This document shows positions 3-49,080 of a stretch of DNA of 64,000 nucleotides, one piece after another. Position numbers and translations under genes: made by a program. The stretch comes from Stygiobacter sp. RIFOXYC2_FULL_38_25. GTDB taxonomy: Bacteria; Bacteroidota; Ignavibacteria; Ignavibacteriales; Melioribacteraceae. The stretch spans positions 620,001 to 684,000 of the forward strand of contig MHAZ01000021.1 of NCBI GenBank assembly GCA_001803165.1. Reading direction: 5' to 3'. The stretch's first letter is position 1. Each line of letters opens with the position of its first letter. The notes below the pieces were generated by a model. The model searched no databases. It saw only the letters and a program-made list of their open reading frames with translations, and was not told where the DNA came from.

Positions 3-1517
3 AGATACGCAACACGTACAAAGTTTTGTGAAGTTGTACTTAACAATCAGTACATAGGAATTTATATTCTTCAAGAAAAAATTAAGCGTGGTAAAAACCG
101 CGTTAATATTAAAAAGATAGAAACCACAGACATTACCGGCGACGCACTAACAGGCGGTTATATAATTCATATTGATCGAATTGATGCCGGCGATAAATAT
201 TTTGTTTCAGATTATCCTTCCGTATATCCAAAGGTTCCAAGGCAACCATCGCCAATTAATTATATTATATCATATCCAAATGAAGAAGATTTACAACCCG
301 CACAGCTTACCTATATCAAAAATTACGTTGGGCAGTTTGAGACCACGTTAACAAAAGCTACTTACAACGATCCTTTTGATGGTTACTATGATTACATAGA
401 TATAGACGCATGGGTAGATTATATTCTTGCCGCAGAGTTTACCAAAGCAACTGATGCATACAGACTAAGCGCATATTTGTATAAAAACCGGGACAGTGAA
501 AATGGAAAATTAGTTTACGGACCTATGTGGGATTATGATCTTGCCTTTGGTTTGGCGGATTATGGAGATGGATGGCCTTCCAGCAACTGGATAGCGCCGG
601 TTGATCCATCCGAAGGAAGTATTAATCGTCCTTTCTGGATTAAGAAAATTTTTAATGATCCGGTTATTTTCAACAAGATTGCAAAGCGATGGCATACTAT
701 AAAGCAAACAGTTTTTAATCCCCAAACAATTATGAAATTCATAGATGAAAGCGTGCTTTATCTTACAGAAGCGGGAAATAGAAATTTCCAGAAATGGCCG
801 GAACTTTTTAATCCGGCAGTTTATATCTGGCCTAATAAAAACCGCTTTACAAATTACAATGATGAGATTTTGTACTTAAAAGTTTGGATAAATCAAAGAT
901 ACACTTGGATGGATGCAAATTTGCCGGCGGATTATTCCGATATTGAATGGAAGCAGCCGGGCAAGCGCTGGCTGTTATATCAAACCGGAAAAACAATAAA
1001 GCTGCCGTTAAACTTATTCTACGGAAGCTATAGAAATTTATCCACACTAAGTTTTGTAAGCAAAGACCCAAGCATAACCTTTTCCATTTCAAGCGATTCA
1101 CTTTCGATAACTTCCAGTAAACTTGGCGAGTTTGTATTTAAAGCGCTTGCTAAGAAAGGAACAACTATTGTTTCCATTTCGCCGGAGTATAGAATTAATT
1201 TAGCTACCGGTATAGATGAGCAAAGTAATTTACCAGCTGAATTTAAGTTGGAGCAGAACTATCCTAATCCATTTAATCCCTCCACGACTATCAACTATCA
1301 ACTTTCGACTCCCGGATTTGTTACACTAAAAGTTTACGATGTTCTTGGAAGAGAAGTTGCAACACTTGTTGATGTATACCAACAACCCGGTAATTACAAA
1401 GTTACATTTAACGCGCGTCATCTCGAGCGGAGTCGAGAGATACACAGCGGAATTTATTTCTATAAGTTTACTGTAAACGGATTTTCTCAAACAAAAAAAA
1501 TGTTGCTGGTGAAATGA
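3..1517 (+). CDS. CotH-kinase family secreted protein with T9SS sorting domain (5' end missing)
   Basis: The frame is open from the left edge, so the N-terminus is missing and about 504 residues are visible. GGYIIHIDRID near the left edge and GPMWDYDLAFG further on are CotH-kinase hallmarks (protein kinase-like fold, usually in secreted or coat proteins). The last ~85 residues are a type A T9SS sorting domain: QNYPNPFNPSTTINYQL, then VTLKVYDVLGREVATLV and the basic end KKMLLVK. The protein is therefore expected to cross the outer membrane by the type IX system. The segment HLERSRE in that domain is encoded by a palindromic element at 1417-1443. The stop overlaps the next start in ATGA, suggesting translational coupling. 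The substrate is unknown, and kinase activity cannot be judged without the missing part. Confidence 0.85.
   Translation, partial: RYATRTKFCEVVLNNQYIGIYILQEKIKRGKNRVNIKKIETTDITGDALTGGYIIHIDRIDAGDKYFVSDYPSVYPKVPRQPSPINYIISYPNEEDLQPAQLTYIKNYVGQFETTLTKATYNDPFDGYYDYIDIDAWVDYILAAEFTKATDAYRLSAYLYKNRDSENGKLVYGPMWDYDLAFGLADYGDGWPSSNWIAPVDPSEGSINRPFWIKKIFNDPVIFNKIAKRWHTIKQTVFNPQTIMKFIDESVLYLTEAGNRNFQKWPELFNPAVYIWPNKNRFTNYNDEILYLKVWINQRYTWMDANLPADYSDIEWKQPGKRWLLYQTGKTIKLPLNLFYGSYRNLSTLSFVSKDPSITFSISSDSLSITSSKLGEFVFKALAKKGTTIVSISPEYRINLATGIDEQSNLPAEFKLEQNYPNPFNPSTTINYQLSTPGFVTLKVYDVLGREVATLVDVYQQPGNYKVTFNARHLERSREIHSGIYFYKFTVNGFSQTKKMLLVK
1417..1443. repeat. In-frame palindromic element (PAL-1) inside a T9SS sorting domain
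   Basis: The sequence begins GTCATCTCGAGCGG and continues AGTCGAGAGATAC, an imperfect inverted repeat. It is translated as HLERSREI between the conserved TFNAR and SGIYFY parts of the sorting domain. Copies lie at the same domain position at 22877-22904 (opposite orientation relative to its gene) and 25583-25609. A related core lies upstream of ruvC at 40235-40261. Confidence 0.75.
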
Positions 1518-22803: not shown

Positions 22804-24147
22804 TTATTTCATCAACACTAGTTTTTTTGTTTTTACAAAACTTCCGGCACGCAATTGATAAAAGTAAACTCCGCTGGTCATCTCGAGCGGAGTCGAGAGA
22901 TGACGTGCGTTGAATGTAACCTTGTAATTACCGGGCTGCTTGTATTCATCAACAAGAGTTGCAACTTCTCTCCCGAGTACATCGTAAACTTTTAAAGTAA
23001 CATGATTTGTAGTGGACGCAAAATTTGCGTCCACTACAGGTATTGTAAATTCCATTGTTGTTTCGGGATTGAATGGATTCGGATAGTTTTGGGATAACGT
23101 ATAATCTAGAGGTATTTCACTTGCACTTTCATCAATAGATGTAGTCACTAGTTTTTTCCTCATTATAAGTCCGTTACCACCTGATAACCAAACATAATTA
23201 CCATTATTCTCCATATCAGTTACATTCTCATTAACTTGAAATTCTTTCACCCATGATATTCCGCGGTCAGTTGTATAAAGAACATAGTGAGGCGAGACTT
23301 TTCGAAAATCTGTGTAGCAAACCCATCCCTTATTTCCACTTTGTGGCGATATGGTCTTAATGTATCTATATTCATTAAAATACGTATCCCAACTTAATCC
23401 ACCATTAGTAGTTGTTGACAAGGGTGCAACACCATATCCATCTGCCCAAAGAGTATCGCTATTTGCAATTTTCAACCGGCGAGCAGGTCCTTCAATATGT
23501 GACGATAATTTGTTCCAATTCTCACCCCCATCATCCGTTTTGTAAACATAGGTCAGAGAAAAATTATCAAAATAATCTCCGGCAATTGCCCAGCCTTCTT
23601 TATTGTTCTTCATCCTAATTGCCTTGAAGAATTTCACGCCAAATCGGTCTGTTGATTCTATTTCAAGTTGCTTTTGCCAGCTATTTCCACCATCAGAAGT
23701 GTGAACAATCATACCTCTGCCAAAGTTATCACCATAACGCTGTCCAGCAGCCCATCCTTCATTTTCATTTACAAATGAGAGATCCTGGAAATCAATTTCA
23801 AAATTACCAGCATAGCGAATCCATGTTTTTCCGCCATCCTTTGTTGAAAATAAACGACCTTGGGAAGCACAAGCATAACCAATTCCTTTGGTAACAAATT
23901 GGATTTGTTGTATTCCAAATTTTTCGTTTTGTATCTTTTCAATTATCCAATCGTTACCGCCATTTGTAGTATGTAAGAATATAATACTATCAGTTATTGC
24001 CCAGCCATTTAATGAATCAAGGAAACAAATGCTTCTAATTGATGCTTTTGTATTTGTACTTTGTACTTCCCAGTCTTGACACAGTACGGTTATTGTCATT
24101 AACTGAATCAACAAACAATAATTAGCAATTTGTTTGAATCTTCTCAT
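22804..24147 (-). CDS. T9SS-sorted protein with Ycf48/BNR-like beta-propeller repeats
   Basis: The 447-residue protein has an N-terminal signal-like segment (IANYCLLIQLMTITVLCQ), then six or so blades of the Ycf48/sialidase-like propeller with repeated TTNGGNDW, STKDGGKTW, TSDGGNSW, KTDDGGENW and TTNGGLSW. The end is a type A T9SS sorting domain (QNYPNPFNPETTMEFT ... KKLVLMK). That domain carries two in-frame palindromes, encoding VVDANFASTT and HLSTPLEMTS. It heads a block of three similar cargo genes on this strand. The ligand of the propeller is unknown. Confidence 0.85.
   Translation of the reverse strand: MRRFKQIANYCLLIQLMTITVLCQDWEVQSTNTKASIRSICFLDSLNGWAITDSIIFLHTTNGGNDWIIEKIQNEKFGIQQIQFVTKGIGYACASQGRLFSTKDGGKTWIRYAGNFEIDFQDLSFVNENEGWAAGQRYGDNFGRGMIVHTSDGGNSWQKQLEIESTDRFGVKFFKAIRMKNNKEGWAIAGDYFDNFSLTYVYKTDDGGENWNKLSSHIEGPARRLKIANSDTLWADGYGVAPLSTTTNGGLSWDTYFNEYRYIKTISPQSGNKGWVCYTDFRKVSPHYVLYTTDRGISWVKEFQVNENVTDMENNGNYVWLSGGNGLIMRKKLVTTSIDESASEIPLDYTLSQNYPNPFNPETTMEFTIPVVDANFASTTNHVTLKVYDVLGREVATLVDEYKQPGNYKVTFNARHLSTPLEMTSGVYFYQLRAGSFVKTKKLVLMK
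22877..22904. repeat. In-frame palindromic element PAL-1, reverse orientation relative to gene
   Basis: GTCATCTCGAGCGG and AGTCGAGAGATGAC on the plus strand form a near-perfect inverted repeat with GTCATCTC/GAGATGAC ends. Read on the minus strand it encodes RHLSTPLEMT, whereas the same element in the other orientation encodes HLERSRE in the genes ending at 1517 and 25509. Confidence 0.8.
23009..23037. repeat. In-frame perfect palindrome PAL-2 (29 bp)
   Basis: Fourteen-base arms GTAGTGGACGCAAA / TTTGCGTCCACTAC surround a single central base. It encodes VVDANFASTT within the T9SS sorting domain, between the EFTIP and HVTLKVYDVLG parts. Confidence 0.9.
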
Positions 24148-24282
24148 AACGTTTCCGAGTTAGTGATATCATTTTATAAATATAAGTTATGTCGACTTTT
24201 ATTGATTATTCTTTTTCAAACAACACAGTCTCATCTTAACAAGAGAGTTTGCAAACGCTGAAGATTTCATTTCGCGTGCCCT

Positions 24283-25494
24283 TTATTTCAGCAAAACCAA
24301 TTTTTTTGTCTCAATAAAACTTCCGGCACGCAATTGATAAAAGTAAACTCCACTTGGTAAAGAAGTTGCATGCGACGTCTTTACGTTAAATATAACTTTG
24401 TAATTGCCGGGTTGCTTGTATTCATCAACAAGAGTTGCAACTTCTCTCCCGAGCACATCGTAAACTTTTAAAGTAACATGATTTGTAGTGGACGCAAAAT
24501 TTGCGTCCACTACAGGTATTGTAAATTCCATTGTTGTTTCGGGATTGAATGGATTCGGATAGTTTTGGGAAAGAGAAAATTGCTTTGGAATTTCAGAATT
24601 CTCACCAATAGAGGAAACTTCTCTGATACGTAAAGTGGTTTTTCTTGAAAAGGTTTTTAAGTTACCATCAGTTACGTAAACAATCACTTCAGATTTGTTT
24701 GCGAATATGAAGTCGTTATTTGACGGAACCCAACCAAATAATCCGTTTTCTAGTAAAACCGACTGTTTGGGCAGCGGTGTCGAAGGGTAAAATTTCAATG
24801 AATCTCCATCAGGGTCAACGGCTTCGTACTTAAACAAATATTTCGTAGTTGCCATAATAGCTGTATCCGGCATTTCTTTAACAAACACCGGCGCATGGTT
24901 AACTCTAAAATTTGCAAAAATGTTTGCTCTGTCGTTTTCAAATAAACCATTTTTAATCGGGAGAGTATAAATTGAATCGCTCGACAGAACAGAATTTTCA
25001 TTTGACCAATTAATAAACCGGTAATCTTTATTTGCTCTGGCTGTTAGAGTAGCGCTAGTACTAGTAAATGATCGTAATACTAATCCTCCGTCCGGGGGTT
25101 TTGTGTCAACATAAAGACGAAATCCTCCATCAGAAGTCATTGCATCTAAAACTGTAATTACTGCAATCCTTGATAAGACGGTATCTTTGCCATCAGTTGA
25201 AAGAATTTGAATATAGTTTTTGCCTAGCTGTAACAGAGAAGGGCGCCAAATAAGTTTGCCATCTGCTGAGTTGAAAAATGAATTTGTCGGCACTAGTGAT
25301 TCTGCAAAATATTTTACAGAATCACCATCGGAATCTATCGCCTTGTAAGAAAATTGAATCGCGTTTCCAGCGCTTACAGTAGTATCTGGTATTTCTTTAA
25401 CAAACACCGGCGCGTGGTTTTCTGTTGTGTCTTTATTTTGAGCAAACAAAACCGAGAAAGAAATAATTACAAATACTAAAATGAATTGCTTCAT
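24283..25494 (-). CDS. T9SS-sorted protein with Ig/cadherin-like repeats
   Basis: The 403-residue protein has a signal peptide (about 1-18, ending LFAQ). Two copies of a ~100-residue Ig/cadherin-like unit begin NHAPVFVKEIPDTTV and NHAPVFVKEMPDTAI and contain AIDSDGDSVKY / AVDPDGDSLKF, probably calcium-binding loops (putative-Ig, He_PIG type). A Bacterial-repeat-like beta segment lies between them. The end is a type A T9SS sorting domain with KKLVLLK. Palindromes at 24358-24383 and 24485-24513 lie inside that domain. It is the middle member of the three-gene cargo block; the adhesive role is inference. Confidence 0.82.
   Translation of the reverse strand: MKQFILVFVIISFSVLFAQNKDTTENHAPVFVKEIPDTTVSAGNAIQFSYKAIDSDGDSVKYFAESLVPTNSFFNSADGKLIWRPSLLQLGKNYIQILSTDGKDTVLSRIAVITVLDAMTSDGGFRLYVDTKPPDGGLVLRSFTSTSATLTARANKDYRFINWSNENSVLSSDSIYTLPIKNGLFENDRANIFANFRVNHAPVFVKEMPDTAIMATTKYLFKYEAVDPDGDSLKFYPSTPLPKQSVLLENGLFGWVPSNNDFIFANKSEVIVYVTDGNLKTFSRKTTLRIREVSSIGENSEIPKQFSLSQNYPNPFNPETTMEFTIPVVDANFASTTNHVTLKVYDVLGREVATLVDEYKQPGNYKVIFNVKTSHATSLPSGVYFYQLRAGSFIETKKLVLLK
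24358..24383. repeat. In-frame imperfect palindrome PAL-3
   Basis: Thirteen-base arms (TAAAGAAGTTGCA / TGCGACGTCTTTA) have one mismatch and one G-T pair. It encodes VKTSHATSL and occupies the slot that PAL-1 fills in the neighbouring sorting domains. Confidence 0.65.
24485..24513. repeat. In-frame perfect palindrome PAL-2, second copy
   Basis: Its sequence is identical to the copy at 23009-23037 and it lies at the same position of the sorting domain. Confidence 0.9.
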
Positions 25495-25508
25495 TGCTTT
25501 CTATTCCA

Positions 25509-26519
25509 CTATTTTATAAAGCACAATTTTTTTGTCTCAATAAAACTTCCCGCTCGCAATTGATAAAAATAAACTCCACTGTTCATCTCTCGACTGCGCT
25601 CGAGGTGACGTGCGTTGAATGTAACCTTGTAGTTACCGGGTTGTTTGTATTCATCAACAAGAGTTGCAATTTCTCTTCCCAGAACATCATAAACCTTTAA
25701 AGTAACATGATTTGTAGAGGACGCAAAATTTGCGTCCTCTACGGGTATTGTATATTCTATTGTTGTTTCGGGATTGAATGGATTGGGATAGTTTTGAGAG
25801 AGAGAATATATATTCGGGATGGCTTCTTTTGTATAGTCAATGTCGGTTTCAAATTGTTTTGCAAAATATAAATCTCTTTTCGCCTGTATCCATCTCAGCC
25901 GTGGATCAGCCTTATATTTTGCCACTAAACTGTCGATCGACTTGTTACTTATACTCCATTCTTCATATTCGCGGGTGTTATATGATCGAGCTATTACCGA
26001 AGCATTTAATGAGTCTCTTAACTTGTTATATTCTTCATCAGAAACAGAGTCCTTAAGACCAACAAATACAATTCCCCCACAGTACTTTTGAGCGGTTATG
26101 TAGACAGAATCTTTAAACGGATAACAGTAGCCAACTATTTTTTGTTTACCATCAACAGTCGGAATTCCGAGCACTTTCGGATCTAAATACCAAATCCACA
26201 CTTTTGATTTTCCGGGTGCAAAGTAAAATTCACGGTAATCCGCCGTACAATATGTTACCATCTGAACATCGTTAAAATTAATTCTTGCAATGCAATTAGA
26301 GCTACCATAAATCGAAATTGGTTTATCTGTATTATTCGTGAACCACACTTTTACTTCAATCATATCCCCATAAGAGTATACCAACTTATCTGTAGTAACT
26401 TTTAAAATCCCTTGCCCATAATCAGTGCCAAATGCAAGTAAACAAAAAATATAAAGTACTTGAATTGCTTTAATTTTGATTGCTAAGTAATATCGACGTA
26501 ATCTTAAAATGGGTTTCAT
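25509..26519 (-). CDS. T9SS-sorted exported protein of unknown function
   Basis: The 336-residue protein has an N-terminal hydrophobic segment (about 14-34). Its first beta domain (VYSYGDMIEVKVWFTNNTDKP) vaguely recalls BsuPI-like/Ig folds with FAPGKSKVWIWYL; I would not name it. Four cysteines are visible in the mature part. A charged helical stretch (about 180-240) is followed by a type A sorting domain. The terminus reads KKLCFIK instead of the usual KKLVLLK, as if one base had been lost from the conserved end. Two palindromes (25583-25609, 25714-25742) sit in the sorting domain. Only 14 bases separate it from the next gene, so co-transcription is likely. Confidence 0.75.
   Translation of the reverse strand: MKPILRLRRYYLAIKIKAIQVLYIFCLLAFGTDYGQGILKVTTDKLVYSYGDMIEVKVWFTNNTDKPISIYGSSNCIARINFNDVQMVTYCTADYREFYFAPGKSKVWIWYLDPKVLGIPTVDGKQKIVGYCYPFKDSVYITAQKYCGGIVFVGLKDSVSDEEYNKLRDSLNASVIARSYNTREYEEWSISNKSIDSLVAKYKADPRLRWIQAKRDLYFAKQFETDIDYTKEAIPNIYSLSQNYPNPFNPETTIEYTIPVEDANFASSTNHVTLKVYDVLGREIATLVDEYKQPGNYKVTFNARHLERSREMNSGVYFYQLRAGSFIETKKLCFIK
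25583..25609. repeat. In-frame palindromic element PAL-1, third copy
   Basis: The plus strand reads TCATCTCTCGACTGCGCTCG then AGGTGAC. On the minus-strand gene it encodes HLERSREM, the same orientation relative to the gene as in the CotH protein. Confidence 0.75.
25714..25742. repeat. In-frame perfect palindrome PAL-2, variant copy
   Basis: The arms are GTAGAGGACGCAAA / TTTGCGTCCTCTAC. Compared with the copies at 23009 and 24485, both arms have changed (GTGG to GAGG and CCAC to CCTC), so pairing is kept. Confidence 0.9.
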
Positions 26520-48021: not shown

Positions 48022-49080
48022 ATGAAAAAAGCTTTACAAATACTTTTCTTATTTCTAGCTGTTTCCGTTAGTACAAGCAATGCTCAAGCATTGTTTGTAG
48101 AAGATTTTAGCTACAATGCCGGTGATTTATTAACGGCAAAAGGATGGTTAGTTAGCTCGGGAACAACAAATGCATTAACAGTAATCTCACCCGGCTTAAC
48201 ATTTACGGGTTATCCATCGGTTGCAGGTAATGCAATTAAGCTTACAACAACTGGTGAGGACGTATATAAAACATTTCCAGCTGTATCCACCGGAAGTGTT
48301 TATCTGGCATTTTTAATGAATGCGGCGTCAGCACAAACCGGGGATTATTTTGTTGCTCTTTCACCTCAATACTTTGTTAATTCTTCTGGTGCCCAGTCTT
48401 CAGGTCAAACTAACTATTACGCGAGAACACACTTAAAATCAAACGGTGCAGGTTATTCTATTGGTATAAGTAAATCCAGCGAGCTTAGCGGCGGTTATGT
48501 TTACGGAAACACTGTCCTTTCGTTTAATAAAACTTATGTGGTTGTAGTAAAACATACATTCAGTGCTGCAACAGCAGATGACGATGCAGAAAGTATTTAC
48601 GTTTTTGGAACCTCAATTTCTTCAACGGAACCGGCAACTCCGGAAGTAGGTCCTCATGTTTACAGCGCAAAAGCAGACCCAGCAGATTTGTATCATATTA
48701 CACTCCGTCAGGGTACCGCCTCAGCTGCAGCGGCAATGACATTGGATGGAATACGCATTGCAACAACCTGGAATGCTTTGTTAACGGCTACAGATGTTGA
48801 AGAAACATCAATCCCAACTAAATATGAATTGAACCAAAACTACCCGAATCCATTTAATCCAAGTACGGTAATTAATTATCAATTACCGGAAGCTGGAAAT
48901 GTTACTCTTAAAGTTTATGATGTATTGGGAAATGAAGTCGCTACATTGGTAAATGAATTCAAACAAGCCGGTGTTTACAATGCTAAGTTCGCTAACTCTA
49001 ATTTATCTTCGGGAATTTATTTATACAGATTGCAAGCAGGTAATTTTGTATCAGTAAAGAGAATGATGCTGATTAAATAA
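48022..49080 (+). CDS. T9SS-sorted exported protein, 352 aa
   Basis: A signal peptide (about 1-24, SNAQ) is followed by a ~240-residue beta-sandwich-like domain (LFVEDFSYNAGDLLTAKGW) of the kind found in Ignavibacteria surface proteins with jelly-roll or LamG-like folds; I do not assign a function. The last ~85 residues are a type A sorting domain (QNYPNPFNPSTVINYQL, VTLKVYDVLGNEVATLV, KRMMLIK). This domain has no palindromic insertion and is a useful reference for those that do. AGAGG site; a terminator follows. Confidence 0.85.
   Translation: MKKALQILFLFLAVSVSTSNAQALFVEDFSYNAGDLLTAKGWLVSSGTTNALTVISPGLTFTGYPSVAGNAIKLTTTGEDVYKTFPAVSTGSVYLAFLMNAASAQTGDYFVALSPQYFVNSSGAQSSGQTNYYARTHLKSNGAGYSIGISKSSELSGGYVYGNTVLSFNKTYVVVVKHTFSAATADDDAESIYVFGTSISSTEPATPEVGPHVYSAKADPADLYHITLRQGTASAAAAMTLDGIRIATTWNALLTATDVEETSIPTKYELNQNYPNPFNPSTVINYQLPEAGNVTLKVYDVLGNEVATLVNEFKQAGVYNAKFANSNLSSGIYLYRLQAGNFVSVKRMMLIK

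Follow-up and report, generated by a model that had tools for sequence, protein, structure and literature searches.

The window analyzed here, a stretch of 64,000 nucleotides from Stygiobacter sp. RIFOXYC2_FULL_38_25 (contig MHAZ01000021.1, positions 620,001 to 684,000), contains three genes whose type IX secretion system (T9SS) sorting domains each carry an in-frame palindrome, here termed PAL-2, and it raises the question of how such DNA came to be translated within a secretion signal. It is very probable that a GTAG-type repetitive extragenic palindrome (REP) landed once in a loop of the domain (site A) and was copied with the domain into three paralogues, and that the loops of the domain tolerate such elements. 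About a quarter of the sorting domains of the genome carry GTAG-type relatives of PAL-2, in the same two loops (sites A and B).

The sequence-only reading of the window had described an in-frame palindrome at three places, encoding a V-x-DANFAS peptide, with a third copy altered on both arms so that the protein changes, and these observations were reproduced. The sequence GTAGTGGACGCAAAATTTGCGTCCACTAC forms two identical palindromes at 23009–23037 (copy 1) and 24485–24513 (copy 2), and GTAGAGGACGCAAAATTTGCGTCCTCTAC forms the third at 25714–25742 (copy 3); all three consist of 14+1+14 bp with no mismatch, and in copies 1 and 2 the perfect pairing reaches 31 bp. Translation on the minus strand gives VVDANFASTTN for copies 1 and 2, the element itself accounting for VVDANFASTT, and VEDANFASSTN for copy 3, flanked in each case by TIP and HVTLK. 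Copy 3 differs by a single complementary pair, a change from T-A to A-T at position 5, and both of its changes are nonsynonymous (V to E and T to S). All three copies have a GT[AG]G foot on one side and a C[TC]AC foot on the other. When the fifth base and the centre are left free, the search pattern has three matches in the 4.4-Mb genome, all of them the window copies, and its reversed control has none.

The three PAL-2 genes (22804–24147, 24283–25494 and 25509–26519) are adjacent, and the C-termini of all three match the PF18962 and TIGR04183 profiles above both cut-offs. Their minus-strand PF18962 sorting domains occupy 22807–23100, in a gene with a YCF48-like match, 24286–24576, in a gene with Ig-like matches, and 25512–25805, the domain whose structure was predicted. 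Site A, which PAL-2 occupies, is flanked by TIP and HVTLKVYD; site B precedes SGVYFY. The 212-nt 3' ends of copies 2 and 3 are 92% and 85% identical to that of copy 1, and the three copies are therefore not independent; three separate insertions in the window were discarded as an explanation on the same grounds. Copies 1 and 2 show 0 differences in the 29 positions of the element and 26 in 192 flanking positions (binomial P 0.015), and copies 1 and 3 show 2 of 29 versus 33 of 192 (P 0.10). The sequences suggest that the three copies probably go back to a single insertion, followed by duplication with the domain.

In the model predicted for the copy 3 domain (mean pLDDT 78.8, 17 sequences), site A lies in a loop between strands 13–20 and 32–39 and site B in one between strands 57–64 and 77–85. 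When this model was used in a structure search, no hit reached E <0.001 (7.7e-3 for the T9SS substrate chain 8glk_D), and a sequence profile search matched 8glj_D at E 0.002.

The identity of PAL-2 emerges from its occurrence in relatives. A 19-base core of the element was found in 36 stretches of named genomes, which by title belong to Melioribacteraceae or Melioribacter (20), Ignavibacteriales (1), a 'Bacteroidetes bacterium' (1) and other taxa (14); the last 14 carry the core without the GTAG foot and were excluded from the PAL-2 counts. Of the 164 genomes of the order, 11 have the core, and all 11 belong to the same family as the window. The 24 order-wide PAL-2 places outside the own genome were assigned by a simple script to sorting domains (4), a RAYT-like gene (1; RAYT, REP-associated tyrosine transposase), intergenic DNA (9) and doubtful frames of 61–169 aa (10). 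All four foreign sorting-domain copies (genomes G118, G139, G146 and G152) lie at site A, and the one in G146 has its odd centre in the opposite reading (VVDAKFAS). In G113, PAL-2 lies in frame inside the RAYT-like gene, and in G146 a copy and a RAYT-like match are separated by about 130 bp. The proposal that a small dispersed palindrome entered the T9SS sorting domain thus holds, given that relatives have the element not only in sorting domains but also in a RAYT-like gene and outside genes, and that other palindromes fill the same loop. PAL-2 is a double-foot GTAG-tagged REP, a type that has been associated with the TnpA-REP (RAYT) transposases of subclass 2.4: the foot at both ends, the perfect stem and the occurrence inside RAYT genes match it to the double-foot REPs of that subclass as given in the available text of PMC6006769. 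To judge from its dispersal, PAL-2 is probably mobile, and it would have been mobilized by RAYT.

Thirteen matches to its RAYT-like protein (L010) were found in the own genome. The label 'RAYT-like' is used because L010 scores 58.8 bits against NF047646, its sole NCBIfam match, and stays below the curated cut-off of 80; PF01797 is matched above cut-off. L010 contains the peptide VETRHASSLQ in frame after PNHVHGIIIIN, and the underlying core, AGGCATGCCT, recurs at four further places of the genome, one of which is a sorting domain. Among the RAYT-like loci L250–L319, the loop after the HuH motif is palindrome-encoded in many genomes, with cores that vary between genes. The motif is present in 28 of the best 30 order-wide RAYT-like loci, 25 of these 28 having a palindrome with an arm of at least 8 in that loop. 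Among 40 hand-picked, mostly more distant loci, 33 have the motif (34 instances), and a palindrome with an arm of at least 9 accompanies 14 of the 34, one of them without a clear GTAG foot. Palindromes in RAYT genes are already known for subclass 2.4 from the available text of PMC6006769, and in-frame palindromes in these genes were accordingly dropped as a novel observation.

The sorting domains of the own genome harbor a wider family of GTAG elements. The pattern AGACG...CGTCTNTAC has 62 forward and 61 reverse matches, and the 100 of these 123 that were listed resolve into at least 66 distinct elements, of which 22 lie in sorting domains, that is, in 0.8% of the genome; the corresponding binomial P of 1e-29 overstates the enrichment because domains are copied. 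Among the matches listed, both feet are present in 20 of the 22 elements in domains versus 15 of the 44 outside (p 1.4e-5). Examination of each domain with short flanks, allowing up to two substitutions, revealed a GTAG-type element in 36 of 150 sorting domains, a count that does not include the decayed site-A element of C4:155616; these hold 39 elements with several cores. When two other insert types recognized by their peptides are included, 51 of the 150 domains are filled. A scripted assignment gave 8 elements to site A and 29 to site B, and two further elements, those of C20:36040, were assigned by eye to sites A and B. At least one mismatch is present in 25 of the 39 elements, mostly at the foot (site-assigned, unenlarged elements). 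Since most are imperfect, perfect pairing is not strictly kept, and of the suggestion that the palindrome is tolerated or selected in the domain, the selection part finds no support, mismatched copies being common. Site A has its canonical length in 115 of the 142 domains (of 150) that could be parsed, a parse that missed some elements.

Other features of these domains were also apparent. Inserts without GTAG feet occupy the same two loops and, by peptide pattern, comprise an RHLERS type in 18, an LNLPKG/LNPSKG type in 14 and an NSQL type in 7 of the 150 domains. At site A of C3:75–350 and C20:36040–36315, an enlarged element, GTAGAGACGAGGCATTCCGCC...GGCGGATCGTCTTTAC, appears to be a palindrome nested in a palindrome. 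Eight contigs (C3, C4, C5, C8, C12, C13, C17 and C21) have a sorting domain that starts within 160 bases of the contig start, which probably means that this repeated DNA is where the assembly breaks. Within the window, domains without the palindrome had been placed at 1514 and 48022. What starts at position 1514 is in fact a DNA alkylation repair gene, the intended domain being 1245–1514 (plus strand); site A is indeed empty there and in the domain at 48826–49077 (plus strand). The latter is of canonical length with neither site filled, but site B of the former holds an ARHLERSREI insert.

Sorting-domain loops are filled in other genomes as well. Double-foot elements of the type GTAGAGACG occur in 57 of the 164 genomes of the order. 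A set of 72 distinct elements outside the own genome was classified by context; it is made up of all 24 places of PAL-2, 17 of the 31 at which the AGGCATGCCT core occurs, and 31 other double-foot elements from loci of 30 genomes (one duplicate excluded). Sorting-domain loops account for 10 of them and RAYT or RAYT-like frames for 7 (two by eye); the other 55 lie elsewhere. One of the 55, the double-foot element at 1501–1528 of locus L344 (G037), lies in the gene of a putative secreted protein and encodes VETMHASSLH in frame, in a domain that precedes the sorting domain; the sorting domain is therefore not the sole coding host.

Homologues of the gene at 25509–26519 are found in 11 other genomes of the family, with 27 to 57% identity, and their fillings differ at the one homologous site. 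In G100 the homologue has at site A a GTAG-type element, one foot of which is altered; in G092 it has a related core there, with the feet GTTG/CAAC. By eye, the homologues of G105, G088, G087 and G148 have other long site-A inserts, repeat-like in appearance, and those of G135, G102, G091, G128 and G129 have a site A of plain length. The long site-A inserts in the homologous domains of L367–L378 include the peptides PSPLQGEG, PLLGGVGGG and VIASGAKQSS...TPRNDN.

Comparison of filled and empty site A in the own genome gave a net gain of 24 nt for PAL-2, 21 nt for AGGCATGCCT and 18 nt for the TTRRVV type. Because the gain is smaller than the element, a few target bases were replaced, and a clean insertion with target duplication was set aside in view of these junctions. 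The left edge of the filling lies 0 or 3 nt past the same proline codon in 11 of 11 fillings (by eye; several cores and genomes), which may reflect targeting, the reading frame, descent or later trimming. PAL-2, as a RAYT-linked dispersed palindrome, would thus have landed once in the β-hairpin loop at site A in the sorting domain of an ancestral gene, swapping out a few codons while the frame stayed open, and would then have been copied along with the domain into three adjacent paralogues. The build-up of REPs in sorting domains could follow from the presence of about 150 domains, from two loops that accept extra peptide, and from the copying of domains between genes. We infer a single insertion, and tolerance rather than targeting behind the concentration in sorting domains.

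Several observations weigh against this account. The own genome holds only three PAL-2 copies, all in the paralogues, and consequently none of its RAYT genes carries PAL-2. A 17-base core is present in one of six genomes of the genus, namely that of the window, and was not found in the five genus-mates. No GTAG-type palindrome was detected in 27 domains parsed from the 30 best-scoring loci of three other genomes, a sample that favors insert-free domains; in one of the 27 (L397), site A is lengthened with no clear palindrome. The net gain at site A, 18 to 24 nt and not 28 to 29, is not that of a clean insertion.

An alternative in which RAYT or another enzyme targets the loops, so that the concentration in sorting domains reflects an insertion preference, is unlikely. 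It would account for the restriction to two loops, for the 22 of 66 elements among the matches listed within so small a part of the genome, and for the constant left edge of the site-A fillings. Yet the edge is also explicable by common descent or the reading frame, the copies within the genome are not independent, the L344 element occupies a different domain of a protein that has a sorting domain, and inserts without GTAG feet in the same loops point to tolerance. That the palindrome is instead a coding feature of the domain that arose in place, with no mobile element involved, fits the restriction of PAL-2 to three paralogues in the own genome. It is nevertheless hardly credible, as it is contradicted by relatives in which the core, with its GTAG feet, lies outside genes or within a RAYT-like gene, and most parsed domains are canonical at site A.

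The landing of a REP leaves the paired change in copy 3 to be explained. If two changes hit the arms at random, a complementary pair would be expected with a chance of about 1.2%; being one event, the change is weak evidence alone. Position 5, which was free in the search pattern, was compared across 26 distinct copies, with window copies 1 and 2 counted once. It is G-C in 17, T-A in 7, A-T in 1 and unpaired in 1, so that pairing is kept in 25 of 26 copies in three states, the A-T state being that of copy 3 only. All five outer pairs are intact in 14 of the 26, including 7 of 7 distinct coding copies versus 7 of 19 others (Fisher p 0.006). Over all 14 pairs (26 copies, 15 distinct rows) no excess of covariation was found, the score being reached by 55 of 500 shuffles. 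Position 5 is the only pair informative for covariation. The inserts at site B of copies 1 and 3 (minus strand; 22877–22904, ARHLSTPLEM, and 25582–25609, ARHLERSREM) are nearly reverse complements of one another, their flanks being otherwise alike; to judge from the alignment, the difference may have arisen by in-place inversion or by insertion in opposite orientation.

Two routes to the paired change were weighed. Template switching at the hairpin during replication, by which the second arm is rewritten from a mutated first, would keep the arms perfect with no selection on DNA or protein, and it has close to an even chance of being the explanation. Compensatory double changes, arm homogenization and spacer inversion are described for template switching in the available text of PMC8794818 and PMC8604942. 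Both changes in copy 3 are nonsynonymous, and the site-B insert is inverted between copies 1 and 3 (25/28 matches as reverse complement versus 16/28 directly), as would be expected of spacer inversion, although the insert may instead have entered a second time, facing the opposite way. The own genome retains elements mismatched on one arm, so any correction must be slow, and a RAYT that passes on only intact hairpins would keep the pairs too. The latter possibility, in which the element is kept as a RAYT substrate, intact hairpins alone are copied and paired changes spread among dispersed copies, is tenable but somewhat doubtful. It agrees with the pairing of position 5 in 25 of 26 copies, in contrast to the outer four pairs, which are often broken, and with the two feet being intact in all distinct coding copies. 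However, the A-T state comes from copy 3 alone, in a duplicated and not a newly filled domain, the covariation of the whole structure is within the shuffle range, and the copies are related.

Many homologous filled and empty sites are present in one genome and in homologues elsewhere, so that insertion junctions, reading frame, gains and losses are open to direct inspection. The secretion signal also contains translated repeat DNA at two fixed loops, a practical hint as to where the domain accepts insertions. That the loops are recurrent acceptors of REPs and other short inserts, with the array of about 150 filled and empty sites in one genome as a record of REP insertion, is improbable, as is the boldest form of this idea, in which RAYT favors the loops and REP peptides diversify secretion signals. 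Literature searches, covering titles and the starts of abstracts, returned no report of REPs or palindromes recurring in T9SS sorting domains.

Rickettsia palindromic elements are palindromes that lie in frame in genes and are translated, and in this they resemble PAL-2. They had been put forward as the parallel, which holds as far as the in-frame location in genes is concerned; the double-foot GTAG REPs of TnpA-REP subclass 2.4 are the closer match. The intragenic CGTC-type repeats of R. conorii are RPE-4 and RPE-6 in the available text of PMC3733652, hence not GTAG, and are set apart by that description. In Porphyromonas gingivalis, intergenic miniature inverted-repeat transposable elements adjoin sorting-domain genes (PMC4596501, in part), which is a different phenomenon. 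The mode of REP spread is treated as an open question in the portion of PMC8266576 consulted. In-frame REPs in RAYT and other genes have already been published (PMC6006769 and PMC3733652, available text), and double-foot GTAG REPs of subclass 2.4 are documented in Cyanobacteria, Bacteroidetes and other phyla (Quentin et al. 2018, PMC6006769, available text). With respect to that text, the difference here is that sorting domains are a frequent coding host, in two loops. PAL-2 also resembles the GTAG REPs of Di Nocera et al. 2013 (PMC3733652, available text) in its GTAG tag, a length of 20–40 bp, paired stem changes, the intragenic location of some copies and the link to RAYT. By contrast, the hosts named in that text are varied proteins, many of DNA synthesis and repair, filled mostly at different sites, whereas many of the elements described here share two homologous sites in one domain family.
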